From positions 1 to 40,391 of the forward strand of contig CAMAVH010000007.1 of the NCBI GenBank assembly GCA_945861615.1: a DNA stretch of 40,391 nucleotides. The letters run 5' to 3'. Below the pieces are notes generated by a model, which worked only from the letters and a program-made list of their open reading frames with translations, searched no databases and was not told the origin of the DNA. Of the stretch, positions 1,705-22,279 are shown one piece after another; position 1 is the stretch's first letter; each line of letters begins with the position of its first letter. The stretch is from Rhizobium sp. Q54. Its GTDB lineage: Bacteria; Pseudomonadota; Alphaproteobacteria; SMXQ01. A program made the position numbers and the translations under genes.

Positions 1705-1733
1705 GAAGGGGCATCATTCCGTGATGCCCCTTC
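1705..1733. terminator. Second perfect hairpin, possible backup terminator
   Basis: A perfect 12-bp inverted repeat (GAAGGGGCATCA / TGATGCCCCTTC) with a 5-nt loop lies 29 nt after the first hairpin. It has no long T-run, so it may be a backup terminator, an mRNA-stabilising structure or a repeat element. It lies before the MFS gene. Confidence 0.45.
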
Positions 1734-1816
1734 GTCGTTCGCGGAGTATGATTTGCCGCATTCGACAATGACAAGAAAAACGCCGCCCTCCTGAAGGGCC
1801 GCGAGAGGGAGGAGTT

Positions 1817-3079: not shown

Positions 3080-3131
3080 GGCTTGCGCCGACAGCCTGTC
3101 CTTTGCGGGCTCTTCCGTGTAAAGAAACCTC

Positions 3132-4133: not shown

Positions 4134-4505
4134 GCTAGCTTCCATCTCATGCCATGCGGCTGCGCGTTTCGCGCCGCGCCGCCATTTTGCGCATTGCGCG
4201 GCAGCGACTGCCCCATTTTCCGCCAATTATACGAATATTGGGAATTCGTGTTTATTTTTGAACATATGTCGCGATCCAGCCTTTGCGCGCGCATGGGCTG
4301 CTTCGCGCAGCATCGAAACGGGAAGCGCCCCGCCGACGCAATATCCTTCTTAACGGATCAGCTGTTAGCCCGGACTGAAACGGTGAGTTGACGGCAATTC
4401 ACCGATGCGAAACGCGACATGGCTGCCATCGGGCTGGCACATAGCTTGCAAAAAATCCACTATCGCCCTTCCGCGCTCTCTTTCATCGAGTCTATGAGGT
4501 TACCC
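4134..4505. other. Intergenic region upstream of the first Bug receptor
   Basis: About 370 bp between dusB and the receptor gene. The middle (about 4220-4270) is notably AT-rich for this window and contains an inverted repeat with 6-bp arms, ACGAAT (4231-4236) and ATTCGT (4244-4249). It probably carries the receptor gene's promoter, though I cannot place -35/-10 boxes with confidence. Short open frames here lack a ribosome-binding site and resemble nothing. Confidence 0.4.
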
Positions 4506-5528
4506 ATGCATCGCTTCTTCCATCGCAACGCAGCTTGTTTGATCGGCGTCGCCGCCGCACTGCTTGCCACGCCTGCAAGCGCGCAAAGCGCCGCCGCGTT
4601 TTACAAAGGTAAGACGCTGAGCGTCGTCGTCGGCAGCAGCCCCGGCGGCGGCTACGACACTTACAGCAGGGCGCTGGCGCGCTATCTCGCGCCGCACGTT
4701 CCCGGCGTGTCCAACATCATCGTCCGCAACATGCCGGGCGCCGGCAGCTTGACCGCCGTGATGCATCTCAACACCACGGCGGAGAAGGACGGCACCGTGA
4801 TGACCGCCTTCAACAGCGGCCTGTTCAACGATTCGATCGGCGCCGGCGATAAGGCGAAAGTGAAATTCACCGATTACGCCTTCGTCGGCAGCGTCACCAG
4901 CGACTTCCGCGTCTGCTATAGCTGGGGCGCCAAGAACATCAAGAATTGGGACAATTTCTCCAAGCGCGGCGAAACCGTTTTCGGCGCCACCGGCATCAAC
5001 TCGAACTCTTACAACGGCGGCGCGATGATCAAGAACATCTTCGGCTTGCCGATGAAGATCATCCACGCCTATCCGGGCAACGCCGAAGTGTTCCTCGCGG
5101 TCGAGCGCGGCGAATTGGACGGCTCCTGCCTGTCTTGGACGTCGCTGCCCGACGAATGGATCACGTCGAAGAAGATCGACATTCTTCTGCGTCTCGGCAC
5201 CGGCACGCGCCCGGGCATTCCCGACGGCGTGCCGTTCATCGGCGATGTCGCCAAGACGCAAGAGCAGAAGGACGTGATCGACGTGCTGCTGGCGTCGGGC
5301 GAATTGGGTCGTCCTTACGTCATGTCGAAAGACGTTCCGGCCGACCGCCTGGCGGTGATGCGCGCCGGCTTCATGGCGACGATGAAGGATGCGGCGTTCC
5401 TCGCGGAAGCCAAGAAGTTGGGACTCGAGGTCGATCCGACCGACGGCGCGACGGCGCAGACCGTTGTCGCCAAGCTTTATACCTTTCCGCCGGAGACGGT
5501 GGCGAAGGCGCAAGCAGCCCTGAAATAA
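4506..5528 (+). CDS. Bug/TctC-like periplasmic solute-binding protein (TTT family)
   Basis: A 340-residue secreted receptor of the tripartite tricarboxylate transporter class. A signal peptide spans about residues 1-27 (ending TPASAQ). The mature N-terminus FYKGKTLSVVVGSSPGGGYDTYSRALARYL and the following NMPGAGSLTA are hallmark Bug sequences. I chose ATG 4506 because GAGG lies 6 nt upstream and the signal peptide begins there; the frame is open back to 4419. Bug proteins bind carboxylates or other small organic anions, and the ligand here is unknown. No TctA/TctB membrane genes are nearby, which is common for orphan Bug receptors. The next gene, an M20-type hydrolase, is separated from it by a strong terminator. 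Confidence 0.88.
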   Translation: MHRFFHRNAACLIGVAAALLATPASAQSAAAFYKGKTLSVVVGSSPGGGYDTYSRALARYLAPHVPGVSNIIVRNMPGAGSLTAVMHLNTTAEKDGTVMTAFNSGLFNDSIGAGDKAKVKFTDYAFVGSVTSDFRVCYSWGAKNIKNWDNFSKRGETVFGATGINSNSYNGGAMIKNIFGLPMKIIHAYPGNAEVFLAVERGELDGSCLSWTSLPDEWITSKKIDILLRLGTGTRPGIPDGVPFIGDVAKTQEQKDVIDVLLASGELGRPYVMSKDVPADRLAVMRAGFMATMKDAAFLAEAKKLGLEVDPTDGATAQTVVAKLYTFPPETVAKAQAALK

Positions 5529-5553
5529 AACGCGCGTTTCGCAGCGTGATCCC

Positions 5554-5584
5554 AACGGGGCGCGGTTCATCCGCGCCCCGTTTT
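5554..5584 (+). terminator. Rho-independent terminator after the Bug receptor gene
   Basis: A perfect 12-bp GC-rich stem (AACGGGGCGCGG / CCGCGCCCCGTT) with a 5-nt loop, ending in TTTT. It starts 25 nt after the receptor stop codon and separates that gene from the M20-type gene. Confidence 0.85.
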
Positions 5585-5647
5585 GACGCATAATGCCTCG
5601 CCGTTCGCCCGGCGATTTCAACGTGACTCTCGGAGAGGATTCCCCCC

Positions 5648-6928
5648 ATGGCTTTGGATAAAGACGCCGCGAAAAAAGTTCTGGCGCAGATCGACCGCAA
5701 CGAACTGGCGCAGCTCGGCTGCGACCTTGCCAACATCCCGAGCCCGACGGGCCTGGAAAAGGGCATGGCGGATTTCATTCTCGATTGGTTCGCCGCCAAC
5801 GGCTTGAAAGGCGTGCGCCAGGAGGTTGAGGTCGGCCGGCCCAACGCCGTCGGCATCCTGAAGGGCGACGGCACCGGCCTCAGCCTTGGCTTCAATGGTC
5901 ATACCGATACCAGCTTCACCGGAACTAGCGCCGATGCGCGCATGACGACGCTGACCGAATCGGCGGAAGACCTGCGCGGCCGCATCGTCGGCGACAAGGT
6001 GCATGGTCTCGGCATCTCCAACATGAAGGGCGGCGTCGCCGCTTTCATGATGGCCGGCAAGGCGCTGAAGAACAGCGGCATCCAGCTCAAGGGCGACGTG
6101 GTGCTCGCCGCCGTGGTCGGCGAAATCTCGCGCAGCCCGATCGGCCAGTTCCAAAGCCAGGAATATCGCGGCGAGGGCGCCGGTACGCGCCATTTGCTGA
6201 CCCACGGCATGCATACCGACTACGCGGTGGTGGCCGACGGCTCCGACCTCAACATCGTCTGGACGCAGATGGGCGTCGTGCAGGTCAAGATCACCTGCTT
6301 CGGCAAGGCGCAGGCCGCCTGGGGCAGCAAGCGTTCGATCAAGCCGATGGACGAGTTCAACGCCATCATCAAGATGACCAAGATCATCGCCGCCATCGAA
6401 AAATGGGGCGCGGCCTTCGAGGAGAAATATATCTACGAATCGCCGACCGGCCCGCTGTGGCCGAAGGTCAACATCGGCGCAATCGAGGGCGGCGCGCCCT
6501 ATCGCCCAAATTATTTCCCCGGCGTCTGCACGCTCTATGTCGACGTCCGCATGCCGCCGCAGGTCCGCCCCGTGCAGATCAAGCATGAGATGGAGCAGGC
6601 GCTCAACGCGCTCGGCGTGCAGTACGATCTCGAGCTTTATAAGTCTCTGCTCGGCTACGAGGGCAAGAAGGTCGATCCGCTGGTCGATAGCGCCAACGAG
6701 GTGCACCAGTTCTTGTTCGGCGACAAGATCAAGACCGAATCGGTCGAACGCGCCAGCATCTGGACAGACACCAATATCTATAACGAGCTGGGCATTCCGG
6801 CGGTCAAGATCGGCCCGCGCGGCCGGCGCAGCGGCCGCATGGAGGAGATCGATATCGACGTGATGCTGCGTGCGGCGCAGATCTACGCGCTGATGGCGCT
6901 CGATATCTGCAGTCGGCCGCGCGACTGA
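5648..6928 (+). CDS. M20-fold metallopeptidase/deacylase with atypical metal site
   Basis: The 426-residue protein has the M20 (ArgE/DapE/CPG2) layout: a catalytic domain, an inserted dimerisation domain at about 205-320, then the end of the catalytic domain. GHTD is present (H85, D87). The usual bridging aspartate is asparagine (GLGISNMKGG, N125). The usual EE pair is GEI (E159, I160). The dimerisation-domain histidine is absent (FGKAQAAWG), and the final zinc histidine is not seen in GPRGRRSGRMEE. It may be a divergent enzyme with altered metal use or a non-hydrolytic homologue. ATG 5648 follows a strong GGAGAGGA site. It ends 6 nt before convergent rlpA. Substrate unknown. Confidence 0.82.
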   Translation: MALDKDAAKKVLAQIDRNELAQLGCDLANIPSPTGLEKGMADFILDWFAANGLKGVRQEVEVGRPNAVGILKGDGTGLSLGFNGHTDTSFTGTSADARMTTLTESAEDLRGRIVGDKVHGLGISNMKGGVAAFMMAGKALKNSGIQLKGDVVLAAVVGEISRSPIGQFQSQEYRGEGAGTRHLLTHGMHTDYAVVADGSDLNIVWTQMGVVQVKITCFGKAQAAWGSKRSIKPMDEFNAIIKMTKIIAAIEKWGAAFEEKYIYESPTGPLWPKVNIGAIEGGAPYRPNYFPGVCTLYVDVRMPPQVRPVQIKHEMEQALNALGVQYDLELYKSLLGYEGKKVDPLVDSANEVHQFLFGDKIKTESVERASIWTDTNIYNELGIPAVKIGPRGRRSGRMEEIDIDVMLRAAQIYALMALDICSRPRD

Positions 6929-6934
6929 GCGGGC

Positions 6935-7384
6935 TTAGACGCCGCCGGCCGGCTGGTCGGCGGCGAATTGCTCGATCTTGACGCGGGCTGTGCCAATCTC
7001 TGTCATGCCGATGTCGCGCGCCGCCTGGGCGGAGAGGTCGATGATGCGGTTGCGCGCATAGGGGCCGCGGTCGTTGATCCGCACCTTGACCGTGCGTCCA
7101 TTATCGATTCGCGTCACGCGCACCACGCTGCCGAACGGCAACGTGCGGTGCGCCGCGGTCAAGCCGTTCATGTCATAGCTTTCGCCGTTGGCCGTCAGAC
7201 GGCCATGGTGGCTCTGGCCGTACCAGGAGGCGACGCCCTGTTGGGTAAAGCTCGGCGCGGGCGCCGGCGCGCTGAGGACGGGGGCGGGCGCCGGTGCGGG
7301 CGACGGCGCCGGCCGGGGGGCGGCGCAGGCCGCCAGACTCGCGGCCGAGGCCAGCGCGAGTAAAAGTTTCAGCCGTGTCGCCAT
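6935..7384 (-). CDS. rlpA: RlpA-like septal ring lytic transglycosylase lipoprotein
   Basis: A 149-residue lipoprotein related to RlpA, which cleaves denuded glycan strands of peptidoglycan near the septum. A lipobox LAAC places the lipidated cysteine at residue 20. A Pro/Ala-rich linker of about 35 residues follows, then a double-psi beta-barrel domain: GVASWYG, GESYD, LTAAHRTLPFG, VRINDRGPY and IDLSAQAARDIG. The Glu, His and Asp expected in the RlpA active cleft are all present. There is no SPOR domain, so this is a short form. I preferred ATG 7384 (GAGG upstream, good lipoprotein signal) over the in-frame GTG at 7423. Confidence 0.9.
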   Translation of the reverse strand: MATRLKLLLALASAASLAACAAPRPAPSPAPAPAPVLSAPAPAPSFTQQGVASWYGQSHHGRLTANGESYDMNGLTAAHRTLPFGSVVRVTRIDNGRTVKVRINDRGPYARNRIIDLSAQAARDIGMTEIGTARVKIEQFAADQPAGGV

Positions 7385-7466
7385 TGCGGAAAGCCTCTGT
7401 CGATCATCGACGGAAAAACGCACGAGGCCGGGCAGAGTTCCCGGCCGGCAGGACTAAAATCCGCCG

Positions 7467-8459
7467 TCAAATCCGCGACTGTTCCATGGTCGAGGCGGCG
7501 AATGCCTCTTCAATGGAAAGATGCTTCACCGACAGGCCCTGCTCATGGTGATAGCGCAGGAAGGCCTCGATGGTGACGCGGTTGGCATCGATGCCATAGG
7601 GCCAGAAATCGCGGCCGAACAGCGCTTCCATCTCGGCGGCGAGCGCGTCGCTCCACGGATGGGTGATTTTCGGGATCGTCACGTTGCGCATGTCGTCGAG
7701 CGCCATGTCCTTGGCCTTGTCGAACGCCTTATAGACGCTTGCGGCGAGCCAAGGATTGGCCTTCAGCTTGCTCTCGAGGATGCCGATGACATGCATGATC
7801 GGGTAGATCCCGGTGCGCTTGTAATAGTCCTTTTCCGTGGCAACGAAATCGGGGAACAGGCGTCCGACGTTCGCCACTTTTTTAATGAAGCAGCTTGGCG
7901 CGCGCGGCGCGATCAATGCGTCGATCTCGCCTTTCTCCAGCATGTCGCTGAGCGTGCGGCCGGCCGGGATCGACGTCAGCGACACGCCCTTGGGCGGCGT
8001 GAAGGAGACCTTCTCGGTGCGACCAGCTTGTTCGAGCCCGCCCGAATGCCAAGTGAAGTCGGTCGGTAGTACGCCGTATTCGTCTTTCAGCATGCCGCGT
8101 ACCCAGGCGACGGCGCTGACCTGATATTCCGGCGCGCCAACCTTTTTGCCCTTGAGATCGGCCGGCGTTTTGATGCCGCGGTCGGTGCGAACGTAGATCG
8201 CCGAATGGCGGAATTTGCGGCCGGGAAACACAGGGATAGCGATATAGGGGCAATCGCCGCGCGCGCGCATGCTGGTGTAATTCGAGAAGCTCAGCTCGGT
8301 GACGTCGAACTCCTGGTGATGCAATGCGCGGTGGAACATTTCCTCCGGCTCGAGGTCGAAGTAGCGCATGTCGCAACCCTCGATCGTCACGCGCCCATCG
8401 TAAAGCGGCAGGGTGCGGTCATAATTCCAGCAGGCGACGGTCAGGGGCAGAAGGCTCAC
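7467..8459 (-). CDS. 4,5-dihydroxyphthalate decarboxylase-like / substrate-binding-fold protein
   Basis: The 330-residue protein resembles the Pht5 group, annotated either as 4,5-dihydroxyphthalate decarboxylase or as an ABC substrate-binding protein. Typical segments are LPLYDGRVTIEGCDM, FDVTELSFSNYT, YIAIPVFPGRKFRHSAIYVR, the PBP2-style block GIKTPADLKGKKVGAPEYQ, and GIYPIMHVIGI. No signal peptide is seen, which favours a cytoplasmic enzyme over a periplasmic receptor. It lies alone between rlpA and the DUF3572 gene. A phthalate 4,5-dioxygenase-like Rieske gene lies 26 kb away, but a pathway link is only a guess. Confidence 0.75.
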   Translation of the reverse strand: MSLLPLTVACWNYDRTLPLYDGRVTIEGCDMRYFDLEPEEMFHRALHHQEFDVTELSFSNYTSMRARGDCPYIAIPVFPGRKFRHSAIYVRTDRGIKTPADLKGKKVGAPEYQVSAVAWVRGMLKDEYGVLPTDFTWHSGGLEQAGRTEKVSFTPPKGVSLTSIPAGRTLSDMLEKGEIDALIAPRAPSCFIKKVANVGRLFPDFVATEKDYYKRTGIYPIMHVIGILESKLKANPWLAASVYKAFDKAKDMALDDMRNVTIPKITHPWSDALAAEMEALFGRDFWPYGIDANRVTIEAFLRYHHEQGLSVKHLSIEEAFAASTMEQSRI

Positions 8460-8594
8460 GGGCGTGCTCCGGATGCGGGGAAAAGGCGGGAGACGCTACC
8501 GCCGAAACCCTTTGAGGTCAAAGGGACCGCGCGTCAAAGGGCCTGTCAGGCAAGGCCGAAGGGCGTTACCCTCGCGGCGCAACAGGAGCGGCAA

Positions 8595-8900
8595 ATGCGC
8601 GACATGAAAGCCAAAGCCAAACGAATCGCCAATCGGGACGAAGCGGAAGCCTTCGCCATCCATGCGGTCGCGCATCTGGCCGGTCAAGAGGACGGCCTGG
8701 AGCGCTTCTCCGCCTTGTCGGGCATCGGCATCGACGAGATCAGGCAGCGTCTCGCCGATGCGGACTTCCTCGGCGCCGTGCTCGATTACGTCCTGTACGA
8801 CGACAAGCTGGTGATCGAGATCAGCGAAGCCGCGGCCATGCCGCCGGAGGCGGTGCTCCAGGCGCGCCGGCTGCTGCCGGGCTATTCGCCCGAGATGTGA
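8595..8900 (+). CDS. DUF3572 family protein
   Basis: A small (101 aa) cytoplasmic protein of the DUF3572 family, found mainly in alphaproteobacteria and of unknown function. The family pattern is visible: DEAEAFAIHAVAHLAGQED, then RFSALSGIGIDEIRQRLADADFLGAVLDYVLYDD, then AAAMPPEAVLQARRLLPG. ATG 8595 is preceded by AGGAG with 6-nt spacing; an ATG at 8604 is also possible. It is convergent with the LysR gene, with 28 nt between them. Confidence 0.8.
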   Translation: MRDMKAKAKRIANRDEAEAFAIHAVAHLAGQEDGLERFSALSGIGIDEIRQRLADADFLGAVLDYVLYDDKLVIEISEAAAMPPEAVLQARRLLPGYSPEM

Positions 8901-8928
8901 ACGGCGTTCAGGCTCGTCGCGTCATTTT

Positions 8929-9792
8929 CTAAAGCTTCGGCGTTTCGAGAGCGCGCACGATGTAGTCTGCGAGCCGCTCGGCCGGCTGGGACAGAGGCGA
9001 CGCCGTCATCAAGGCGATTTCGGTGTCGGAAAGGTCGGGCGCGCCTGACGGCGTGTCGATGATGAAGAAATCGTCGGGCACCATGTCTTTGGGAAGAACG
9101 GTGATGCCGAGCCCGGCGCGCACGGCGGCTTGCGCGCCGGCGAGGGACGTCGAGGTGTAGGCGACGCGCCAGGCGCGTCCGGCCTTGTCGAGCGTCTGCA
9201 TAGCGCGTTTGCGATAGACGCAGGGATGCGGCGAGACGACGAGCGGCAAGGTCGCGTCGGTGGCGAAGAAGTCGTCGCGGTTCGCGGCCCACACCAGCGG
9301 CTCGCGCCATACGCGCATTCCATTGATCGGCCCCATGGGCTCGCGCTTGATCAGCACCAGGTCGAACTCCCCGGCTTGAAAGCGGTCGATCAGATTGAGC
9401 GTCAGATCGGTGGTCACTTCCAGGGCGACATTGGGATGGGCTTGCGCGAAGCGCGACAGGACGTTCGACAGATGGGTCGTCGCGAAATCCTCGGGCGTGC
9501 CGAGACGCACGTTGCCTTTGACGCCGGGTTCGACGAGCCGCGCGACGGCCTCGTCGGAGAGCGTCAGGATGCGCCGCGCGTAGGACAGCAGCAGTTCGCC
9601 ATCGGCGTTCAGGCGCACCGCGCGCGGCGTGCGCTCCATCAGCTTGCGGCCGAGCTGATCTTCCAACCGCTTCATCTGTAGGCTCACGGTCGGCTGACTG
9701 AGCAACAGCCGCTCGCCGGCGCGAGTGAGGTTGCCGCTATCGGCGATGGCGACGAAGGTGCGCAGAAGGTCGAAATCCAGGCGGGGCAGCAT
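8929..9792 (-). CDS. LysR-family transcriptional regulator
   Basis: A 287-residue LysR-type regulator. The N-terminal winged helix-turn-helix covers about residues 5-65 (DLLRTFVAIADSGNLTRAGERLLLSQPTVSLQMKRLEDQLG), followed by a periplasmic-binding-like effector domain to the C-terminus. It is divergent from the isocitrate dehydrogenase gene with 105 bp between starts, the classical arrangement for a LysR protein controlling its neighbour and itself. The effector is unknown; isocitrate, citrate or 2-oxoglutarate would be reasonable guesses from context only. Confidence 0.93.
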   Translation of the reverse strand: MLPRLDFDLLRTFVAIADSGNLTRAGERLLLSQPTVSLQMKRLEDQLGRKLMERTPRAVRLNADGELLLSYARRILTLSDEAVARLVEPGVKGNVRLGTPEDFATTHLSNVLSRFAQAHPNVALEVTTDLTLNLIDRFQAGEFDLVLIKREPMGPINGMRVWREPLVWAANRDDFFATDATLPLVVSPHPCVYRKRAMQTLDKAGRAWRVAYTSTSLAGAQAAVRAGLGITVLPKDMVPDDFFIIDTPSGAPDLSDTEIALMTASPLSQPAERLADYIVRALETPKL

Positions 9793-9897
9793 GATGAGCC
9801 ATCATTTAATAATACAATGATAAGTAGACTAATAATTAATTTTTGAAATGTCTAGCCATCGGGCACAACAGCGCAACGCCAACCGCTGGAGGCTGCC
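9793..9897. promoter_or_regulatory. Divergent LysR / isocitrate dehydrogenase control region
   Basis: This gap is strikingly AT-rich at 9803-9846 compared with its surroundings. A perfect inverted repeat ATGATG-AGC-CATCAT (9791-9805) overlaps the LysR start codon, and TAATAAT occurs twice. These could be LysR binding sites, but I cannot identify a single convincing T-N11-A box or -10/-35 pair. Confidence 0.45.
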
Positions 9898-11382
9898 ATG
9901 ACTGTCCTGCCTGCCGAAAAGACCTTGGTTTCCCAAGACGCGATCACTCCCATCACGGTCGCGCGGGGAGACGGGATCGGGCCCGAAATCATGGAGGCGG
10001 CCCTCCGAGTTCTCGACGCCGGCGGCGCGAGGCTCGCCGTGGAGGAGATCGTGATCGGCGAACGGCTCTATCGCCAGGGCGTCAGCGCCGGCATCACCGC
10101 CGAGGCCTGGGACAGCCTGCGCCGCACCGGCGTGTTCTTCAAAGCACCGATCACGACGCCGCAGGGCGGCGGGTTCAAAAGCCTCAATGTCACGATCCGC
10201 AAGGGCCTTGGCCTGTTCGCCAACGTGCGCCCCTGCCGCGCCTATGCGCCCTATGTCGCGACGCATTATCCGGCCATGGACGTAGTGATCATCCGCGAGA
10301 ACGAAGAGGACCTTTACGCCGGGATCGAGCATCGTCAGACCGACGAGGTCTATCAGTGCCTCAAGCTCATCACCCGGCCGGGCACGGAACGGATCGTCCG
10401 CTATGCCTTCGATTACGCGCGGAGCGTCGGCCGCCGCAAGGTGACCTGCTTCAGCAAGGACAACATCATGAAGATGACGGATGGCCTGTTCCATCAGATC
10501 TTCGACAGCATCGGCGCCGAATATCCCGAAATCGAGAAGGAGCATATGATCGTCGATATCGGGGCCGCCAAGCTGGCGGTCGCGCCCGAACGCTTCGACG
10601 TCATTGTCGCTCCCAATCTCTACGGCGATATCGTCTCGGATATCGCGGCGGAAGTGGCGGGATCGATCGGCCTCGCCGGCTCGGCGAATATCGGCGACCA
10701 CGGCGCCATGTTCGAGGCCATCCACGGCTCGGCGCCGGACATCGCCGGTCAGGACATCGCCAATCCCTCCGGCCTGATCAAGGCCGGCGTGCAGATGCTG
10801 CTGCATATCGGCCAGCCCGAGGCCGCCGAGCGCATCCATAACGCCTGGGCTTTGACGCTCGAAGACGGCGTCCATACGGCCGATATCTACAATTCCGGCA
10901 TCTCGCGCCGGAAAGTCGGCACACGCGACTTCGCCAGCGCGGTCATCGCCAGGTTCGGCGAGCGGCCGCGGAAATTGAAGGCCGCGCGCTATCGCGCCGG
11001 CTCGCTCGGCGTTCCGCTGCCCAAATATGTGCGGCCGGAGCCGCAGGACAAAAACTTGGTCGGCATCGACGTGTTCGTCGAGTGGCGCGGCGGCAATGTC
11101 GAGGCCCTGGCACGGCGGATGCAGTCGGCGCAAAACGGCGTTTTCGAGCTAAAATTGATCACCAATCGCGGCGTCAAGGTCTGGCCCAACGGGCTGCCTG
11201 AAACCTTCTGCACCGACCACTGGCGCTGCCGCTACGAGGCGAAAGCCGGCAAGCAACTCAACAAAGCGATGATCGCCGAATTGTTCGGTAGGCTCGCGCA
11301 GAGCGGCATCGAGTACGTCAAGTCGGAGCATCTCTACACCTTCGACGGCAAGCCCGGCTTCTCGCTCGGGCAGGGACAATAG
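9898..11382 (+). CDS. icd: Long (Thermus-type) isocitrate dehydrogenase, predicted NAD-dependent
   Basis: Oxidative decarboxylation of isocitrate to 2-oxoglutarate is the predicted reaction. The 494-residue length and the C-terminal domain of about 140 residues (from about 350) match the Thermus-type long form rather than the 416-residue E. coli enzyme. Substrate residues are visible in KSLNVTIRKGLGLFANVRP (S95, N97, R101, R111) and R133. Catalytic aspartates lie in NLYGDIVSD. In the cofactor loop HGSAPDIAGQDIANP, D281, I282 and A288 stand where NADP enzymes have Lys, Tyr and Val, so NAD is the likely cofactor. TGGAGG lies 5 nt before ATG 9898. Likely controlled by the divergent LysR gene. 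A related beta-decarboxylating dehydrogenase activity remains possible. Confidence 0.87.
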   Translation: MTVLPAEKTLVSQDAITPITVARGDGIGPEIMEAALRVLDAGGARLAVEEIVIGERLYRQGVSAGITAEAWDSLRRTGVFFKAPITTPQGGGFKSLNVTIRKGLGLFANVRPCRAYAPYVATHYPAMDVVIIRENEEDLYAGIEHRQTDEVYQCLKLITRPGTERIVRYAFDYARSVGRRKVTCFSKDNIMKMTDGLFHQIFDSIGAEYPEIEKEHMIVDIGAAKLAVAPERFDVIVAPNLYGDIVSDIAAEVAGSIGLAGSANIGDHGAMFEAIHGSAPDIAGQDIANPSGLIKAGVQMLLHIGQPEAAERIHNAWALTLEDGVHTADIYNSGISRRKVGTRDFASAVIARFGERPRKLKAARYRAGSLGVPLPKYVRPEPQDKNLVGIDVFVEWRGGNVEALARRMQSAQNGVFELKLITNRGVKVWPNGLPETFCTDHWRCRYEAKAGKQLNKAMIAELFGRLAQSGIEYVKSEHLYTFDGKPGFSLGQGQ

Positions 11383-11447
11383 GAGGCGCGCAGAACAAAT
11401 AGAGGTTTCGTCAAAAATTTTTTCGATCGGTTGCCGGGCCCCTCTGG

Positions 11448-11463
11448 CGAGCCGCGTGGCTCG
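11448..11463 (+). promoter_or_regulatory. Small hairpin in the TerC leader
   Basis: A perfect 6-bp stem (CGAGCC / GGCTCG) with a 4-nt loop lies 45 nt before the TerC-family start. TerC genes are often preceded by a manganese (yybP-ykoY) riboswitch, but I do not see its conserved core in the 125-nt gap. Confidence 0.25.
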
Positions 11464-11507
11464 TGATGTCGGAACCACCTTCTTGACATTGTCCGGAGCC
11501 AGACATC

Positions 11508-12503
11508 ATGCCCGAATTCCTATTTGCCGATTTCCTCGGCAAGCCCGCCTGGATGTGGATTGCTTTCCACGCGATCGTTTTTTTGTTGCTCGCATTCGAT
11601 CTCGGCGTTCTCCATCGAGATGCCGAAAAAGAGATCGGCGTCCGCGAGAGTCTCATGCTATCGGCCTTCTATATCACGCTCGGCCTGCTGTTCGGCGGCT
11701 GGCTGTGGTGGTCGCTCGGCGCGCAGTCGGGAGAGGAATATCTGACGGGCTTCATCATCGAGAAATCTCTCTCGATGGACAATGTCTTCGTCATCGCCAT
11801 GATCTTCGGCTTCTTCGGCATCCCGCGCGCTTACCAATATCGGGTGCTGTTCTGGGGCATTCTCGCGGTCATCCTGTTGCGCGGGTTGATGATCGGCGTC
11901 GGCGCCGCCCTGATCGCGGAATTCGCCTGGATCCTGTGGCTGTTCGCGGCCTTCCTGGTGATCACCGGCATCAAGATGATTTGGGCTGCCGACAAGGAAT
12001 ATGACGTCGGCTCCAATCCGCTCGTCAATTTTCTCCGTCGCAGAACGCGCATCACTGACGAGCTGCACGGTCAGCGCTTCTTCGTCCGACTGCCGGATCC
12101 GAAAAGCGGCAAGCAGGTCATATGGCTGACGCCGCTGTTCCTGGTTCTGGTGCTCGTCAACGTCGCGGATGTCATCTTCGCGGTGGACTCGGTGCCGGCG
12201 ATCTTCGCAATCACCACCGACACCTTCATCGTCTACACGTCGAACATCTTCGCCATTCTCGGCTTGCGAGCGCTCTACTTCGCCTTGGCCGCGATGGTGG
12301 ATCGCTTCAAGTATCTCAAGTATGCGCTCGCCGTGATCCTGATCTTTATCGGCAGCAAGATATTCGTCGCCGATATGCTCGGCCTGGCCAAGATCCCGGC
12401 GTCGATATCGCTCGGGGTGACGGTGACGATCTTGGCGGCGGGCATCGCCTATAGCCTATGGGCGACACGCAAGCAGCGGAGCGATATAGCCGCGGCCGAA
12501 TAA
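11508..12503 (+). CDS. TerC/Alx-family integral membrane protein
   Basis: A 331-residue inner-membrane protein of the TerC family, whose members are linked to manganese export (Alx, MntP-like role) and tellurite resistance. Eight or nine hydrophobic segments are visible. The family's acidic motifs are intact: AFDLGVLHRDAEKEIGVRESL, FIIEKSLSMDNVFVIAMIF and NVADVIFAVDSVPAIFAITTDTFIVYTSNIFAILGLRALYF. These carry the conserved acidic residues within membrane segments that are thought to bind metal. GGAG lies upstream of ATG 11508. No ter operon genes are nearby. It is convergent with the acyltransferase, with 25 nt between them. Confidence 0.92.
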   Translation: MPEFLFADFLGKPAWMWIAFHAIVFLLLAFDLGVLHRDAEKEIGVRESLMLSAFYITLGLLFGGWLWWSLGAQSGEEYLTGFIIEKSLSMDNVFVIAMIFGFFGIPRAYQYRVLFWGILAVILLRGLMIGVGAALIAEFAWILWLFAAFLVITGIKMIWAADKEYDVGSNPLVNFLRRRTRITDELHGQRFFVRLPDPKSGKQVIWLTPLFLVLVLVNVADVIFAVDSVPAIFAITTDTFIVYTSNIFAILGLRALYFALAAMVDRFKYLKYALAVILIFIGSKIFVADMLGLAKIPASISLGVTVTILAAGIAYSLWATRKQRSDIAAAE

Positions 12504-12528
12504 CGCTTTCAAGCCGCAGGACGGCAGA

Positions 12529-13746
12529 TTATGCCGCTCCAGTATCGATGCTCACTTTTTGGCGCACTGTCTTTGGATTCGGCTTTTTAAGAGCCGTTTT
12601 CAAAGACAGCGGCCGTTCGATCAGCAGATAGATCGGTAGGCTGGCGGCGAAACCGGCGACGATCCCGGCCGGCAGCCAGAGCAGGAACGTGCCGAGGCCG
12701 CCCGCCTTCAATAGGCCGAGCTTGCCGAGCAGCATGAACAAGGCTTGCAGGCCGAGCCCGTGCATCAGGTAGAACGAATAGCTCATGTTGCCGAGCCAGC
12801 GCAGCGGCGTCCAGGAGAAGGCCCGCGCGGCGGGACCGTCGGTAAAGACGCTGCGATAGACCAGCAGCACGAAGGCGATGTTGATAAGCACGATGCGGGT
12901 GACGGGCGGCAGGGCGCCGTTGAGAGCGCTCGGCACGGCGACGGGGTTGATCGCCAGCAACACATAAAGCGTGAAGGCGCCGCAGACGATCGCCAGGATC
13001 GTTGCGTCGGAGAGCGCGCTGGTCTTTCGCCGCTCGGCGGGAATCATCGAGATGATCTCGTACAGCATCATGCCGCCGAGGAACGTGGAGAGGCGAAAAC
13101 GCCCCCCGAGTCCGGCCAATTCGACGGCGATCATCGCCGCATAAAGCGCGAGGAAGAACACCAGCCGTTGCGGCGGCGTCCACTGCCGCATGCGGAGGAA
13201 AACGATGGCAAGCGGGACCGGCAGATAATAGAAGGCCTCGTAGCTGAGCGACCAGGCAACGGTCATCATCGGCTCGATCGGCAGCATGCCGGGGAGCAGG
13301 AAGATGTTGGCGAGCACATATGTGATTTGCGCGCCGAGACCTTCGGGCAGCTTGCTCGCGCCGGGCATCAGCAGCATGAGCGCGAGGTAGATGCTGAGGG
13401 CCGCCAGAAAGGCCGGATAGATCCGTTCGATTCGGCGATAGGCATATAAGCGGAAGGTAATCGGCCGCTGGATGCACGCCTTGTAAATCAGAAAGCCGCT
13501 CAGGACGAAAAAGAGATCGACGCCGACATTGCCGACTTCATGCAAGGCCGCGAGCCAATTGGCGTCATTGCGGTCGTCCAGAAAGCTGGCGTAATGGACG
13601 AGAAAGACGAGGCCGACGGCAAAGCCGCGCAAGCCTTCCATCGGCAACCATCGTGCCGTCGCGGCGTCCTGCACCTCGAAAAGCGCGCTGACGCGGCGCA
13701 GCTTGGTTCTTGTTTCCCCGGCTTTGCGTGGCGGGGAACCCGTCAC
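12529..13746 (-). CDS. Acyltransferase 3 family membrane protein (EPS O-acylation likely)
   Basis: A 405-residue multi-spanning membrane acyltransferase (OafA/ExoZ type) that would transfer an acetyl or similar group to a sugar. The family motif LRGFAVGLVFLVHYASF includes the conserved R and H. Later come VGVDLFFVLSGFLI, RRIERIYPAFL, WSLSYEAFYYLPV and LGNMSYSFYLMHGLGL. The ORF starts with GTG 13746, 3 nt after the stop of the response-regulator gene, so the two are probably translated from one mRNA. The first ~35 residues are hydrophilic, so the exact start is unsure. Placement at the edge of the EPS locus suggests it decorates that polymer. Confidence 0.88.
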   Translation of the reverse strand: MTGSPPRKAGETRTKLRRVSALFEVQDAATARWLPMEGLRGFAVGLVFLVHYASFLDDRNDANWLAALHEVGNVGVDLFFVLSGFLIYKACIQRPITFRLYAYRRIERIYPAFLAALSIYLALMLLMPGASKLPEGLGAQITYVLANIFLLPGMLPIEPMMTVAWSLSYEAFYYLPVPLAIVFLRMRQWTPPQRLVFFLALYAAMIAVELAGLGGRFRLSTFLGGMMLYEIISMIPAERRKTSALSDATILAIVCGAFTLYVLLAINPVAVPSALNGALPPVTRIVLINIAFVLLVYRSVFTDGPAARAFSWTPLRWLGNMSYSFYLMHGLGLQALFMLLGKLGLLKAGGLGTFLLWLPAGIVAGFAASLPIYLLIERPLSLKTALKKPNPKTVRQKVSIDTGAA

Positions 13747-13749
13747 GCG

Positions 13750-14502
13750 CTATTCGCCCAGCCAGCGATAGCCGAAGCCGGAGTAGGTGGCGATCCGGTT
13801 GAAGTCGGGATCGACTTCGCAGAACTTTTGCCGAATGCGCTTGATGAAGGTGCGGACGTTCGAGCGATAGCCGTCCGCCCCGTCGCCGGCGATGAAGCCC
13901 TCGCCGCGCACCGTGTCGTAGATCTTACGGTGCGACAGATCATGGTCGGCGTTGGAGGCCATCTGCTGCACGATGCGGAATTCCGCCAGGGTGAGGTTCA
14001 CCAGCTGATTGCGCCAGAAGGCGCGGTTCGACGTCGTGTCGAGCTCCAGGCTGCCGATGCGCAGCATGGTCGGCTGGGGCGGCGTCGTCGTCCGGATCAT
14101 GCCGCTGTTGCTGTTCAGCGCGGAATTGATGCGGCTGAGCAGGATGGTGAAGCTGCGGGTCTTGTCGATGAAATCGGCCGCGCCGTTCTTGAGCGCGGTC
14201 TCCTCGTACACAGAACCGCTCAGCGAGGTTAGGAATATAGTCGGAATTTCGATGTTTTCCTGGCGCAGGATGCGGAACAGCTCCATGCCGGAAATCGTCG
14301 GCAGCTTCCAGTCGAGCAGCGCCAATTGGGCGGTGCCGCCGTCGCGGATGTATTTGAGGGCCGTCACGCCACGGTCGAAACCGATCACGTTGAAGCCTGA
14401 ATCACGCAGATTCTGCGTGGTAATTTCGCGAAAGAAATCATCATCTTCGACGAAAAGAATATGGGTGTCGGGAGCGTTGGAGTCGTCGCGTTTGGCTTCC
14501 AT
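13750..14502 (-). CDS. OmpR/PhoB-type response regulator, orphan
   Basis: A 250-residue two-component regulator. The receiver domain (about 14-135) keeps the acidic pocket E19/D20, the phospho-acceptor D64 in LLDWKLP, T92 and K114. A winged-helix DNA-binding domain occupies about 145-250 (LTLAEFRIVQQM, YRSNVRTFIKRIRQKF, GFGYRWLG). No histidine kinase is in the window, so the cognate sensor is elsewhere. It heads a pair with the acyltransferase and is divergent from the EPS outer-membrane gene across a 460-bp AT-rich gap. Regulation of EPS genes is likely from position, not shown by sequence. Confidence 0.9.
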   Translation of the reverse strand: MEAKRDDSNAPDTHILFVEDDDFFREITTQNLRDSGFNVIGFDRGVTALKYIRDGGTAQLALLDWKLPTISGMELFRILRQENIEIPTIFLTSLSGSVYEETALKNGAADFIDKTRSFTILLSRINSALNSNSGMIRTTTPPQPTMLRIGSLELDTTSNRAFWRNQLVNLTLAEFRIVQQMASNADHDLSHRKIYDTVRGEGFIAGDGADGYRSNVRTFIKRIRQKFCEVDPDFNRIATYSGFGYRWLGE

Positions 14503-14713
14503 GTCTCGTCATCCTGCATCATGGGAATTTGCGTCATGGGTATCTCGCCTACTCTCCGGCCGGACATTCCATGTGTGTCTTTTGGCCCTTTGCAGCACTC
14601 CCAGAACGGCCAGCCTCCCACAACCGGCCGATTTGCTCAGAGTTCCCTTCCGTGGCTTGCAGCATCATAACTTTGTTTTTTTTCAATTTACTCAGGCTCT
14701 TATGGGTGATTTG

Positions 14714-14749
14714 TGGCAATTTCGGCACTTCAATTGGCAATTTTGGCGC
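14714..14749. promoter_or_regulatory. Direct repeat, possible response-regulator operator
   Basis: TGGCAATTTCGGCAC (14714-14728) and TGGCAATTTTGGCGC (14735-14749) match at 13 of 15 positions and start 21 bp apart, two helical turns. OmpR-family regulators typically bind direct repeats, and the repeat sits about halfway between the divergent start codons. That the adjacent regulator binds it is inference. Confidence 0.4.
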
Positions 14750-14880
14750 TCCCGCTAAAAATTTGGGGCCAAACCCAGCTACTTCTGCCGAAATAACGTT
14801 GCCGACGAGAATTGGTGCCTTACGAAATGCTCACGCGAATCATCCAATACTTTCGCCTGAGTTGATAATAGTAACGACGC

Positions 14881-14898
14881 AATTTCCGATTGGAAATT
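14881..14898. promoter_or_regulatory. Palindrome upstream of the outer-membrane protein gene
   Basis: A perfect 7-bp inverted repeat AATTTCC-GATT-GGAAATT lies 64 nt before ATG 14963. Position and symmetry suggest an operator for a dimeric regulator. Confidence 0.35.
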
Positions 14899-14962
14899 CA
14901 ATGTGATCGCGCCATAAATTTGTCACGAGCGGATCCATCTATTGCGAAGAGAATCTTTTCAC

Positions 14963-16303
14963 ATGAGCCCCTCTCTCCAGTTTCGCGGTCACACTCATCG
15001 GTGGCTCTCCGTTCCCCTTGGCACAGGTCTATTGCTGAATGTGGTTGTGATGACCCAGTCGGCTTGGGCGCAGGAACCGGCGAAAGTCGACGCTGTCCCC
15101 GCGACGGTCACAGAAGTCGATAATCGCAATGCTGGACGCGGCGAAGACGTGCTGGAGCGCTTCCGTGTGACGGAGCTGCCGCCGGCCGGTTCGCGCATCG
15201 GCGCCTTCGTCGCCCATCCCAAGGTCGGCGCGAGTCTCGTCTATGACGACAACATCTACGCCGCCAACCGCAACAAGCAGGAAGACTTCATCGGCACGGT
15301 GAATCTCGGCGGCCGCATCGATTCGGATTTTCCTGAGCATAAGCTCGGCGCGCGCGCCAACCTAGATATCAACCGCTATCTCGAAAACACCTCGGAAAAC
15401 AATTGGCAGGGCGAGCTCGGCACCACGGGCACCTACGATTTCGACCGGGACAACAAGCTCGGCGCCGATCTGAGCGTGCGGCGCGCCGTCGAGCCGCGTG
15501 GCGATCCGGACGATCTCGGCGCGACGTCGCCGACCGTCTATCGCGCCTATCGCGGCGCGAGCTATTTCGAAAACACGACCGGCGCTTACGTCTCGCGCCT
15601 CGAAGGCGGTCTGGAACGTCTGGAATACGACAATCTGGTCAATGCCAACGGCGCCACCGTTTTCGCCAGCGACCGCGACCGCTACGAGCCTTTCGTCGGC
15701 GGCCAACTCGGTTACCGCTATTTCGGCGCCCAGCAGGTCTATCTGCGCGCGCAAGGCAACCAGCGCCAATATGACCGCAATGTCGATAGCGGCGGTTTTC
15801 GCCGGGAATCCGACGGCTATCGCGCCGAGGTCGGCGGCACGGCGGATCTCGGCGGCCTGGTTTTCGCCGACGTTTCCGTCGGTTTCCAGGAGCAGTCGTA
15901 CGACGATGCACGATTTGGCTCGCCCTCCAGCCCGATCGGTAAAGTCAATCTGCTGTGGAACCCGGACCGGGTGACGAGCGTTCGTCTGGAGAGTTCTTAT
16001 GAATTCGTGGAGAGTTTCGACAGCGGTAGCCCAGGTTATTGGCGCAGTTTGTCGACGCTCCGCGTCGCCCACGAAATCGCCTACGACTGGTTGGCCATCG
16101 GCCGGCTCGTCTATCAGGATCGGGACTTCGAAAAGAGATCGCGTAACGATGATATTTACGGTTTTGACCTAGGCTTAAGTTATCGAATCGACCGGGGATT
16201 GTTCTTGGATGCCGAGTACCGCCACCGCGAGCAGGAGTCGTCGACTGCGAACTCCGACTATGAGCGGAACATGGTGCTCTTACAAATAAGGAGAACTTTC
16301 TGA
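14963..16303 (+). CDS. Outer-membrane beta-barrel protein of the EPS locus (BBP2-like)
   Basis: A 446-residue secreted protein. A signal peptide runs to about residue 35 (LLLNVVVMTQSAWAQ). The rest is rich in alternating aromatic and polar strands, such as VGASLVYDDNIYAANRN, LGYRYFGAQQVYLRAQGNQRQYDRN and YGFDLGLSYRIDRGLFLDAEYRHREQ. It ends in RRTF with the C-terminal Phe expected for barrel assembly. This fits the putative beta-barrel porin 2 group often encoded next to Wza/Wzc in alphaproteobacteria. It may help polymer cross the outer membrane. I chose ATG 14963; the frame is open from a TTG at 14942. Its TGA overlaps the next gene's ATG. Confidence 0.82.
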   Translation: MSPSLQFRGHTHRWLSVPLGTGLLLNVVVMTQSAWAQEPAKVDAVPATVTEVDNRNAGRGEDVLERFRVTELPPAGSRIGAFVAHPKVGASLVYDDNIYAANRNKQEDFIGTVNLGGRIDSDFPEHKLGARANLDINRYLENTSENNWQGELGTTGTYDFDRDNKLGADLSVRRAVEPRGDPDDLGATSPTVYRAYRGASYFENTTGAYVSRLEGGLERLEYDNLVNANGATVFASDRDRYEPFVGGQLGYRYFGAQQVYLRAQGNQRQYDRNVDSGGFRRESDGYRAEVGGTADLGGLVFADVSVGFQEQSYDDARFGSPSSPIGKVNLLWNPDRVTSVRLESSYEFVESFDSGSPGYWRSLSTLRVAHEIAYDWLAIGRLVYQDRDFEKRSRNDDIYGFDLGLSYRIDRGLFLDAEYRHREQESSTANSDYERNMVLLQIRRTF

Positions 16304-16884
16304 TGGCGACGACCTCTTCCACCGCTTTGCGTCATGCCTTGTTGGCCGTTACTGCGGTCGTACTGCTGGGTTTGGCTGCGTGCGCTGGCAACAGCCCGAA
16401 CCAAGGGGCGCTCGAATCGTCTCCGCTGCAGGCCTATCGCCTCGGCGCCGGCGACAAGATCGCCGTTAACGTTTACGGCGAGCAATCCATCGCCGGCGAA
16501 TATGAAGTCGACGACGCGGGCACCGTGTCTCTGCCGCTCGCCGGCCGCGTCAGCGTTAAGGACATGACCGCGCCGCAAGCCGAATCCGCTCTGCAGGCCA
16601 AACTGAAGAGCAGCCTCGAGAATCCTCAGGTCAATGTCAGCGTCGTTGAGTATCGCGACATCTATATCCTCGGCGAAGTGGCCAAGCCGGGCGCCTATCC
16701 CTATCGTGCGGGCGCCACTGTGCTGAACGCTGTCGCTCTCGCCGGCGGCTACACTTACCGCGCCAAGTCGACCGATATTTCGGTCATGCGTCCGGAAGCC
16801 GGTAAGTCCGATGCCATGCACGCCCAGCAGGATGCCTATCTCCACCCGGGCGATATCGTGATCGTCCCGGCGCGCTGGTTCTAA
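16303..16884 (+). CDS. Short Wza-like polysaccharide export lipoprotein
   Basis: A 193-residue lipoprotein (lipobox LAAC, lipid cysteine at 27) of the polysaccharide export family. The Poly_export domain is visible at about 42-115 (YRLGAGDKIAVNVYGEQ, VDDAGTVSLPLAGRV, NPQVNVSVVEYRD) and one SLBB domain at about 116-185 (IYILGEVAKPGAYPYRAGATVLNAVALAGGYT, LHPGDIVIVP). E. coli Wza is about twice as long and has a C-terminal helix that forms the outer-membrane pore; that part is missing here. The preceding beta-barrel protein could supply the pore. ATG overlaps the upstream TGA (TGATG) and has an AGGAG site, so translation is coupled. Confidence 0.92.
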   Translation: MATTSSTALRHALLAVTAVVLLGLAACAGNSPNQGALESSPLQAYRLGAGDKIAVNVYGEQSIAGEYEVDDAGTVSLPLAGRVSVKDMTAPQAESALQAKLKSSLENPQVNVSVVEYRDIYILGEVAKPGAYPYRAGATVLNAVALAGGYTYRAKSTDISVMRPEAGKSDAMHAQQDAYLHPGDIVIVPARWF

Positions 16885-16906
16885 GGCGTCATTTAACGGC
16901 ACGACC

Positions 16907-18250
16907 ATGACGATGAGCGTCGGCCGGTCCTCTCGGTGGCGAAGCCTCCGCCGAGAGCCGGCGGCGCCGTCGCGGCGCGCCGATCCCGTCGTCATGGCGG
17001 GGCTTGCCGCCATCATTTTCGGCTGTATTTTTCTACAGCGTCTCGCCGTTCCGGTTGGGGCGATCCAGCTCTCCCTCAGTTTCCTGATCGGCTATGGCGG
17101 CTTGGCCTATCTGCTGCTGCGCGGCCGGATTGCCCTGAGCTTTCCGCTCTGCATCTTCTTCTTCGTGGTCATGGCGGCTCTGACCATGTCGATCCTGCAT
17201 TCGGGGTCGTCGGCATCTCTGATGTCGTTCTTTTATCTGTTCAGCATCTATAGCCTCTATCTGTTCAAGATACGGGGGGACGGCCAGGCAGCCTCCGAAG
17301 AGATCCAGAATCTCTATCAAAGGTTCATGCTGATCGCGGCGGCGGGCGGCATCATCCAGTTTTGCCTGCAGTTCGTGCTGCCCTTCGAGCTGCTGTTCCC
17401 GCTCGAGACCTTCGTGCCGGCGCAATTCCTGTTCGGAGAGGTCTACAACGTCATCATCCCGCTGACGTACGGCTCGCCGATCATCAAGAGCAACGGCTTC
17501 ATCTTTCTCGAGCCGTCATTCTTTTCGCAGTTTCTCGCCCTGGCTTTCATTCTCGAGCTTATGGGGCGTCAGCGCGCTTCGCGGCTGGCGCTGCTCGCCG
17601 GCGGCCTGCTGGTCGCCTATTCCGGCACCGGCCTGCTGCTGATCGCGCTATTTCTGCCCTACCTGATGCTGCGGCGGGGCAACCTCTATCTGCTGCTGTT
17701 CGCGATCGGCGGCCTGATTATTCTCGGCTTCAGCGCGACTGCGCTCAATCTCGACATTTTCCTCGGCCGCGTCGGCGAGTTCAATTCGCCGGAATCGAGC
17801 GGTTTTGCGCGCTTCGTTTCGCCGTTCTATCTCTTCCGCGATTTCATGGGGACGCCGGGCGCCTTTCTGCTCGGGCTCGGACCGGGCTCGATCGACGAGG
17901 TGATGCGCGAGGCGAGCTACCGCGGCTACATTTCTCACGATCCCACTTGGATCAAGGCGGTGCTGGAATATGGCGTGATCGCCGGCCTGCTGCTGCTCGG
18001 CTACGTCGTGGCGGCCTTTTTCGCCGGCTCGCGCAGCAAAGTGCTTTCGGCGGTTCTACTCTGCCTGTTTCTCTTCCTCGGCGGTTATCTGCTGAACCCG
18101 ATCATGCATTTCTTGTTCGCGGCGCTGCTCGCCTGGTCGAACGCCGAAACGGCGGCAGTTCAGGCGACGCGGGCGCGATCGCCGGCGCCAGCGGGGATTG
18201 GGGCCGGTGCGGTCCAGCCGGCGCGGCGCGATTCGCTGAGACTGCCGTAA
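16907..18250 (+). CDS. Wzy-like polysaccharide polymerase / O-antigen ligase-type membrane protein
   Basis: A 447-residue protein with about 11-12 hydrophobic segments and a larger loop at about 275-360, the general shape of Wzy polymerases. GLGPGSIDEVM and SHDPTWIKAVLEYGVIAGLLLLGYV resemble the late loop of O-antigen polymerase-type proteins, where conserved Arg/His residues contact polyprenyl-linked glycan. The role, joining repeat units in the periplasm, is inferred from topology and neighbours because the family is poorly conserved. Start ATG 16907 has no clear Shine-Dalgarno; ATG 16913 is an alternative. Its last 91 nt overlap the 3' end of the oppositely transcribed GT4 gene. Confidence 0.8.
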   Translation: MTMSVGRSSRWRSLRREPAAPSRRADPVVMAGLAAIIFGCIFLQRLAVPVGAIQLSLSFLIGYGGLAYLLLRGRIALSFPLCIFFFVVMAALTMSILHSGSSASLMSFFYLFSIYSLYLFKIRGDGQAASEEIQNLYQRFMLIAAAGGIIQFCLQFVLPFELLFPLETFVPAQFLFGEVYNVIIPLTYGSPIIKSNGFIFLEPSFFSQFLALAFILELMGRQRASRLALLAGGLLVAYSGTGLLLIALFLPYLMLRRGNLYLLLFAIGGLIILGFSATALNLDIFLGRVGEFNSPESSGFARFVSPFYLFRDFMGTPGAFLLGLGPGSIDEVMREASYRGYISHDPTWIKAVLEYGVIAGLLLLGYVVAAFFAGSRSKVLSAVLLCLFLFLGGYLLNPIMHFLFAALLAWSNAETAAVQATRARSPAPAGIGAGAVQPARRDSLRLP

Positions 18251-19377: not shown

Positions 19378-19411
19378 GGCGGGCTGCTCCTTGTCGCGAT
19401 TGATGGGCCTA

Positions 19412-19471
19412 GCTAATAAGCGCCGGGCTAATAAGCGCCGGGCTAATAAGCGCCGGGCTAATAAGCGCCGG
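19412..19471. repeat. Four-copy 15-bp tandem repeat between ExoY-like and GT4 genes
   Basis: GCTAATAAGCGCCGG is repeated four times without error. On the minus strand each unit reads CCGGCGCTTATTAGC and reproduces the final codons of the ExoY-like gene (Gly-Ala-Tyr-stop). The unit nearest the gene supplies its real stop; the others follow in frame. Confidence 0.95.
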
Positions 19472-20351: not shown

Positions 20352-20517
20352 GTGACCTCCGTGGCATGAACAACGTCGATCGAACGCCCCTTAAATTCAC
20401 CGACCGATGCATCATGCGTGGCCTCGTGAATGATGTGCAGTGTGCGTATCGTGGACTTTTTGTGTGCGCTGCGGCATAGGCGCCGATGGAACCCTGAATA
20501 GATAATAAAATCAGATG

Positions 20518-20543: not shown

Positions 20544-20580
20544 TTTTGCTCTCGTGATCTATTCGCAAGAGAGGGGGCGC

Positions 20581-22261: not shown

Positions 22262-22279
22262 GACCGATTCGGGCAAGCA

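Follow-up and report, generated by a model that had tools for sequence, protein, structure and literature searches.

A long isocitrate dehydrogenase gene with a divergent LysR neighbor

The window, by which we mean the whole stretch of 40,391 nucleotides that was analysed, carries a gene for a long isocitrate dehydrogenase, icd, and on the opposite strand a gene for a LysR-family regulator. The open reading frame of icd begins at the ATG at 9898 and ends with the stop codon at 11380–11382. The divergent LysR gene, which the original prediction had placed next to it, lies 105 bp away. The features of the locus are the following, in window positions, with the basis of each in brackets.

8929–9792, minus strand: LysR-family regulator, 287 aa, divergent from icd (open reading frame and models)
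9793–9897, no strand: LysR–icd intergenic region with divergent promoters, 105 bp (sequence)
9835–9847, no strand: candidate regulator site AT[CT]AATT[AT]N(3-5)AA (aligned divergent regions)
9888–9892, plus strand: probable ribosome-binding site GGAGG (direct reading)
9898–11382, plus strand: icd, subfamily IV (long) isocitrate dehydrogenase with NAD-type loop, 494 aa (open reading frame, models and alignment)
9952–10944, plus strand: isocitrate/isopropylmalate dehydrogenase catalytic domain, residues 19–349 (PF00180)
10723–10767, plus strand: cofactor-discriminating loop, residues 276–290, HGSAPDIAGQDIANP (E. coli alignment)
10879–10893, plus strand: second cofactor segment, residues 328–332 (E. 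coli alignment)
11050–11379, plus strand: C-terminal domain, residues 385–494 (PF18324, 148.2 bits)

On the same strand as icd and 125 bp 3' of it is a gene for a TerC/Alx-type membrane protein (11508–12503; TIGR03718, 401.8 bits), and the neighborhoods of the other long icd genes examined yielded no TerC/Alx gene. An exopolysaccharide cluster (14942–28004) lies beside the icd region and encodes an EpsL-like outer membrane protein, a WbaP-type transferase, a flippase, a Wzc-like tyrosine kinase, and glycosyltransferases. Farther along, 29257–31551 encodes a large molybdenum hydroxylase subunit, a relative of aerobic CO dehydrogenase/glyceraldehyde dehydrogenase that scores below the cut-off of every model listed.

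Family and structure of the long enzyme

The protein scores 759.7 bits against the NCBIfam model PRK09222 (cut-off 509) and 702.8 bits against TIGR02924 (cut-off 561.35), which places it in that family, and only 27 bits against the type II model PRK08299. Its 494 residues and its PF18324 domain fit an architecture of 480–500 residues with an additional C-terminal part of about 100. By sequence and by comparison of the AlphaFold model (pLDDT 89.7), the closest solved relative is the Thermus thermophilus enzyme 2d1c (Z 48.1, rmsd 2.2 over 480 residues). The original description of a Thermus-type long enzyme is therefore upheld by the PRK09222 and TIGR02924 scores and by 2d1c as the best solved relative, and the long C-terminal domain that it named is the PF18324 domain at 385–494. 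It should be noted that "Thermus-type" here refers to architecture and not to cofactor, because Lys-Tyr, the NADP-type pair, is what the Thermus enzyme carries. Passages of the literature name the long group "subfamily IV" (Vinekar and colleagues, 2012; PMC3521221) or place it within type I (Wang and colleagues; PMC4360740). The window gene adds one more member to the published subfamily IV, and its cofactor preference is a prediction.

A clasp-like structure is described for the subfamily IV C-terminal domain in passages of PMC3521221. In our model the domain matches residues 377–495 of 2d1c (Z 17.1, rmsd 1.7, 117 residues); its predicted fold is ferredoxin-like (beta-alpha-beta-beta-alpha-beta), and an N-R-G-x-K motif is strongly conserved in this domain of the long enzymes. 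An ACT-type sensor was considered, but the matches beyond 2d1c (S6, homoserine dehydrogenase, and an acetohydroxyacid synthase subunit) reach a Z of 7.6 at most, and we therefore claim no function for the domain.

Active site and cofactor pocket

Residues were mapped onto E. coli K-12 Icd, the sequence of which was taken from the genome record. The catalytic, isocitrate-binding, and metal-binding positions S95, N97, R101, R111, R133, Y140, K187, D220, D244, and D248 are all conserved (10/10; E. coli S113, N115, R119, R129, R153, Y160, K230, D283, D307, and D311), in agreement with the Ser-Asn-Arg isocitrate-binding set noted beforehand. The loop HGSAPDIAGQDIANP aligns with E. coli HGTAPKYAGQDKVNP without a gap, and so is in register with E. 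coli 344–351, with no shift that would undo the residue assignments. D281, I282, and A288 stand opposite K344, Y345, and V351, exactly as predicted from the sequence, and in the second segment A328 and N332 stand opposite Y391 and R395. The pocket thus has the NAD-type pattern, with Asp-Ile where E. coli has Lys344-Tyr345, Ala at position 351, and a residue other than Tyr at 391; the basic residue that serves the 2'-phosphate at position 344 in the NADP type is absent, and Asp281 is found instead.

The cofactor determinants of the E. coli enzyme are given as Lys344, Tyr345, Val351, and Tyr391 in passages of PMC10574006, which also describe a Pseudomonas aeruginosa type I enzyme in which the residues matching 344 and 391 contact the cofactor phosphate and in which Asp at the 344-equivalent leaves less than 1.2% of the NADP affinity. 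According to passages of PMC3521221, the E. coli enzyme was made NAD-specific by K344D/Y345I, Asp-Ile being the NAD-type pair. Based on these E. coli rules (PMC10574006, PMC3521221), we predict that the window enzyme is of the NAD type, despite the name "NADP-dependent" that NCBIfam attaches to PRK09222. The NAD-type signature proposed at the outset is strengthened by Ala328 at the Tyr391 position and by the family-wide pattern described below. Open-access full texts, with subscription papers mostly outside that scope, yielded no kinetic data for long enzymes with Asp-Ile or Arg-Arg and zero papers for the family-model names and accessions.

A second isocitrate dehydrogenase in the same genome

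A PF00180 scan of the genome gave two genes only, the window icd and a stronger match elsewhere that we take as LeuB. The reading that there is no second icd is ruled out by the type II model: the whole-domain scan misses the type II gene because an assembly gap splits it. Scanning the genome with PRK08299 detected the N-terminus of a type II enzyme as 26 codons at the end of contig C160 (G000:C160:4804-4881) and the C-terminus within a 78-codon open frame at the end of contig C157 (G000:C157:5159-5383). In a genome of the same genus, G001, the type II gene is intact (406 aa, Arg-His pair); one side of its surroundings matches C160 and the other side C157, and the 904 bp missing here are intragenic. 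Arg-His is the pair of NADP enzymes in subfamily II in passages of PMC3521221. Since C160 and C157 match the flanks and the ends of the intact gene, an ordinary NADP type II enzyme is very probably present in this genome also, hidden by a gap in a draft assembly of 191 contigs (92.3% complete), although the gene is known here from its two end fragments in the draft assembly, and its middle may have been truly deleted. The second icd gene, which had been suspected and for which a genome search had been suggested, is thus found as two contig-end fragments. The scan of the ten genomes G001–G010 with the type II model found the gene complete in seven and in two pieces in G002, and did not find it in G003 and G007. 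A monomeric enzyme was dismissed, the single PF03971 match falling below the cut-off and containing two internal stops.

Presence and absence within the genus

Window 1707–8887 lines up in order with G001:C59, with 82% of nucleotides identical. On this side DusB shares 91% identity with its G001 counterpart and the M20 protein 98%, from which we conclude that the contig is native. The match breaks off at 8887, some 40 bp short of the LysR gene, and no match to window 8890–16300 was obtained in G001 (30 of 218 candidates scored). PF18324 was not found in G001, and no TIGR02924 match above the cut-off was found among G001–G010. Because the collinearity ends before the LysR gene and the stretch beyond was not found in G001, LysR and icd lie in a stretch that was gained or lost within the genus. 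The start of the exopolysaccharide cluster (to 16300) is within that same stretch; the substrate-binding-like protein encoded at 7467–8459 (PF12974 and NMT1 matches) is shared with G001.

Conservation of the LysR–icd pair

LysR genes were sought in the flanks of 135 long icd loci, 55 from the window's class and 80 named loci that are the best 80 of 586, come from several phyla, and form a non-random sample. The wide flanks cover all but 10 of the other 64 class genomes with PF18324, and 125 of 136 loci (the 135 and the LeuB-like L110, G001:C39) have at least 900 bp upstream. Because the search profile derives from the LysR of the window and 15 neighboring LysR genes, the total of 31 LysR genes in 30 of the 135 loci may under-count distant family members located elsewhere in the flanks. 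Twenty-six of the 31 are directly upstream and divergent, which corresponds to 26 of 135 loci (8 class, 18 named); the flanks of the LeuB-like L110 gave no LysR match. In seven relatives (L111, L115, L119, and L120 of the class; L127, L128, and L130 of the named loci) the regulator is 54–61% identical to that of the window. The same arrangement with a distant divergent LysR, 21–25% identical, occurs at L140, L142, L146, L147, L148, L158, L172, and L174, eight loci that we take to be from Bacteroidota.

The pairing spans Arg-Arg (L111, L127, L128), Asp-Ile (window, L119, L130), and Thr-Ile (L115) loops and so is not confined to a single loop type. The nearest relative of the window enzyme, L130 from a Hyphomicrobiales MAG (70% identity), has an Asp-Ile loop, a divergent LysR 61% identical to that of the window, and a type II gene. 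The candidate site occurs in 8/8 aligned divergent regions, including that of the window, compared with a mean of 0.12 and a maximum of 2/8 in 2000 shuffles, a test that is optimistic because the pattern was picked after the alignment had been viewed. The suggestion that the divergent LysR gene is a sign of regulation is supported by the conserved pair together with the conserved candidate intergenic site. LysR alone does not mark a second enzyme, because the pair is also found in G383, in which type II was not found. In the literature on isocitrate dehydrogenase with LysR and divergent as search terms, the terms were absent from titles and abstracts among the matches listed.

Loop types and repeated switching among long enzymes

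In the window's class, 65 of the 385 genomes have PF18324. Across 145 aligned rows of long enzymes, position 344 is Arg in 51, the pair is Asp-Ile in 49 and Lys-Tyr in 16 (Thermus included), 27 have another residue at 344 or Leu at 345, and 2 are odd; the 49 and the 27 together make up the 76 rows of the Asp/other-Ile group, with Ile or Leu at 345. Tyr391 accompanies Arg344 in 49/51 rows and is present in 0/94 of the others, while the tree-aware test of this association has only four supported pairs, with an agreement of 3.9 on average (p 0.125). Two positions separated by 47 residues change in concert, as one would expect of a cofactor switch. Rows with intermediate loops (L131, L184, L193, L194, L174, and G223) show RR with Asp391, RI or RH with Tyr391, RL with Asp391, KM, and KL, and these resemble transitional forms between the main types. 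In the main text of PMC3521221, no mention of the Arg-Arg/Tyr391 relatives was found. Two further rows deserve mention: L015/L118 (G045:C76:869-2283) is a long icd in two frames, either a frameshift or a broken gene, with a Met-Ile loop, and genome G300 has two long icd matches (L082, L086) on separate contigs, both Asp-Ile, one of them a fragment near a contig start.

The 145-row tree excludes EcIDH and two fragments (G160, G300a), and a careful tree of 142 rows excludes G213, G045, and G016 as well and omits the loop columns. The window enzyme is sister to L130 (98/81), followed by G270 and G173 (96/81), all with Asp-Ile. Within the 112-row clade to which it belongs, the best tree implies 14 switches between Arg and non-Arg, of which at least 11 are still needed after branches with less than 80% bootstrap support have been collapsed. 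When the tree is rooted on the Thermus clade, a non-Arg root costs fewer changes (14 vs 16), which gives 2–3 gains of Arg and 11–12 losses; these switching rates are not general, since the named loci are the best-matching 80 out of 586. The long icd of L132 (Tepidiforma MAG) falls among rows of the window's class, a poor fit to its title, and that of L138 (Nitrososphaerota MAG) beside Micromonospora and Mycobacterium rows; binning errors or transfers are possible in both.

We put forward, as a proposal that we judge to be evenly poised, that subfamily IV is a natural cofactor-switching series, in which, besides the Lys-Tyr enzymes, a widespread NADP-type pocket of Arg344-Arg345 with Tyr391 would have evolved from an NAD-type ancestor on two or three occasions and been lost again to the NAD type about 11 times, including in the window lineage, with a divergent LysR in several phyla whichever the type. 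The Arg-Arg/Tyr391 signature and the repeated switching are the new part, and the window gene is of a known kind. If Arg-Arg is not an NADP pair the switching reading fails, and the reading of the window Asp-Ile pair is unaffected.

Association with type II enzymes and isocitrate lyase

The type II scan found no type II gene in 33 of the 65 long-icd genomes of the class. The six Arg rows of the class all have one, as do 11 of the 25 named Arg-type genomes that were tested, so that an Arg-type enzyme does not simply replace a type II one. In class rows, type II is present with Lys-Tyr in 0/15 and with other loops in 32/49 (Fisher p 7e-6), although the Lys-Tyr rows all fall within a single deep clade that includes Ile-type rows as well, and a test that takes the tree into account had only three pairs and was uninformative.

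A glyoxylate rule was also considered, in which NAD-type enzymes are expected where isocitrate lyase is lacking and type II is the icd alternative that is counted. Genomes counted as having the lyase include 14 with two long pieces and three with weaker forms of about 530 aa (G132, G235, G173), and the count omits short weaker matches (about 300 aa, 40–65 bits) that pass the Pfam cut-off. Ten of the 27 Asp-Ile class rows are without type II, and none of these 10 has the lyase; all 8 rows that do have the lyase also carry type II. Contrary to the rule, G383 (Thr-Ile, type II not found) has the lyase, and 15/15 Lys-Tyr rows lack it although they are NADP-type in look. In 50 of the 80 named genomes the lyase is present in 2/25 R-type and 6/25 non-R genomes, and 0/6 of the latter have type II. 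A consistent link between loop type and isocitrate lyase that would explain cofactor choice was found neither in the class rows nor in these 50 named genomes.

Proposed role of the window enzyme and alternatives

We now propose, as the probable explanation of the locus, that the window gene encodes an NAD+-preferring accessory isozyme of subfamily IV that is controlled by LysR and works beside a type II NADP enzyme. The Ser/Asn/Arg/Tyr/Lys/Asp site, assigned by alignment, would oxidize and decarboxylate isocitrate to 2-oxoglutarate. By analogy with characterised enzymes, Asp281, in place of the lysine that grips the 2'-phosphate of NADP, would favor the free 2'-hydroxyl of NAD, and Ile282 and Ala328 would take the place of two phosphate-contacting tyrosines. 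The conservation of the gene pair suggests that binding of LysR to the 105-bp intergenic region sets the expression of icd, and synteny with one genome of the same genus shows that the isozyme and its LysR were acquired or lost as a unit within the genus. The advantage would probably be that isocitrate flux through the long enzyme supplies NADH for respiration, with NADPH coming from type II. The initial observation is thus confirmed and its interpretation largely, though not wholly, borne out, the conditional expression and catabolic role that it suggested being conjectural.

It is possible, although we think it rather unlikely, that the roles are reversed, such that the long enzyme is the main and constant enzyme of the TCA cycle, type II is a minor source of NADPH, and LysR is a fine-tuner rather than a switch. 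The many class genomes with a long icd in which type II was not found would fit this, as would the LysR pairing in G383. Against it, the gene is dispensable in the genus and family, given the negative PF18324 and TIGR02924 searches of G001 and G001–G010, respectively, and type II was detected in most of the latter, G003 and G007 being the exceptions.

A less probable alternative, which we regard as improbable, is that NADP+ is used, or both cofactors about equally, with residues outside the loop deciding specificity in subfamily IV. The name of the best NCBIfam model points in this direction; so does 2d1c (Lys-Tyr), which is the only solved long member among the 60 of 79 matches listed, none of which is an Asp-Ile or Arg-Arg long structure, and which is described in the literature as NADP-dependent. 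Dual-specificity isocitrate dehydrogenases are also known in other groups, according to passages of PMC10380307 and PMC5397045. Nevertheless, Thermus has Lys-Tyr where the window enzyme has Asp-Ile, Asp at 344 nearly abolishes NADP affinity in the characterised enzymes covered by passages of PMC10574006 and PMC3521221, and the phosphate-binding tyrosine is missing at 391 as well.

That the substrate is instead a related compound (homoisocitrate, isopropylmalate, or tartrate) is very improbable: the enzyme belongs to the wider dehydrogenase superfamily and related-substrate models do match it, but far under their cut-offs (LEU3_arch, 287.9 vs 409.8 bits) where PRK09222 and TIGR02924 are far exceeded, the substrate segment S95-L-N97-x-x-x-R101 is of the isocitrate dehydrogenase type, and a separate gene elsewhere in the genome, with a much stronger PF00180 match, is taken as LeuB. 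Least credible of all is a binning error that brought in the gene of another organism, which the failure to find it in the ten nearest genomes searched might suggest and which is ruled out by the ordered match of 1707–8887 to G001:C59 with its DusB and M20 proteins.

The change from NAD to NADP in isocitrate dehydrogenase is a textbook case and is presented as an ancient adaptation in passages of the papers cited here. If the switching series is real, it would run counter to this usual one-way and ancient picture, and the apparent switches, at least 11 among fairly close long enzymes, would provide many natural before-and-after pairs. The family also shows that the database name "NADP-dependent" is spread over members with differing cofactor pockets. 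For the organism itself, the accessory-isozyme proposal predicts two isozymes that split NADH and NADPH output at a single metabolic junction, with a dedicated regulator for one of the two.

Comparison with known isocitrate dehydrogenases

The window enzyme shares its length, the C-terminal domain of about 100 residues, and the active-site set with the other enzymes of subfamily IV, namely those of T. thermophilus (2D1C) and the Rickettsia group. It differs from 2D1C in that the latter has Lys-Tyr (NADP), and in that the window gene, paired with a divergent LysR, would encode an additional isozyme alongside type II. Passages of PMC3521221 treat the Rickettsia type as NAD-dependent and report Asp-Ile pairs in all four subfamilies. 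With the type I NADP enzyme of E. coli the window enzyme has the fold (Z 42) and the loop register in common, although the E. coli enzyme is without the C-terminal domain, and its 239–275 region is very short in subfamily IV (PMC3521221, in the same passages); the K344D/Y345I changes of the engineered NAD-specific E. coli mutant 1ISO are natural in the window enzyme. The Asp-Ile loop is also found in the enzymes of Methylococcus capsulatus and Xanthomonas (6lky, 6m3s), which are about 45% identical to the window catalytic domain, and in mitochondrial IDH3 and yeast IDH2, but all of these are about 340 residues in length and are without the C-terminal domain. The type II NADP enzyme (PRK08299), present as fragments in the same genome, catalyzes the same reaction and belongs to another subfamily, with an Arg-His loop in G001.
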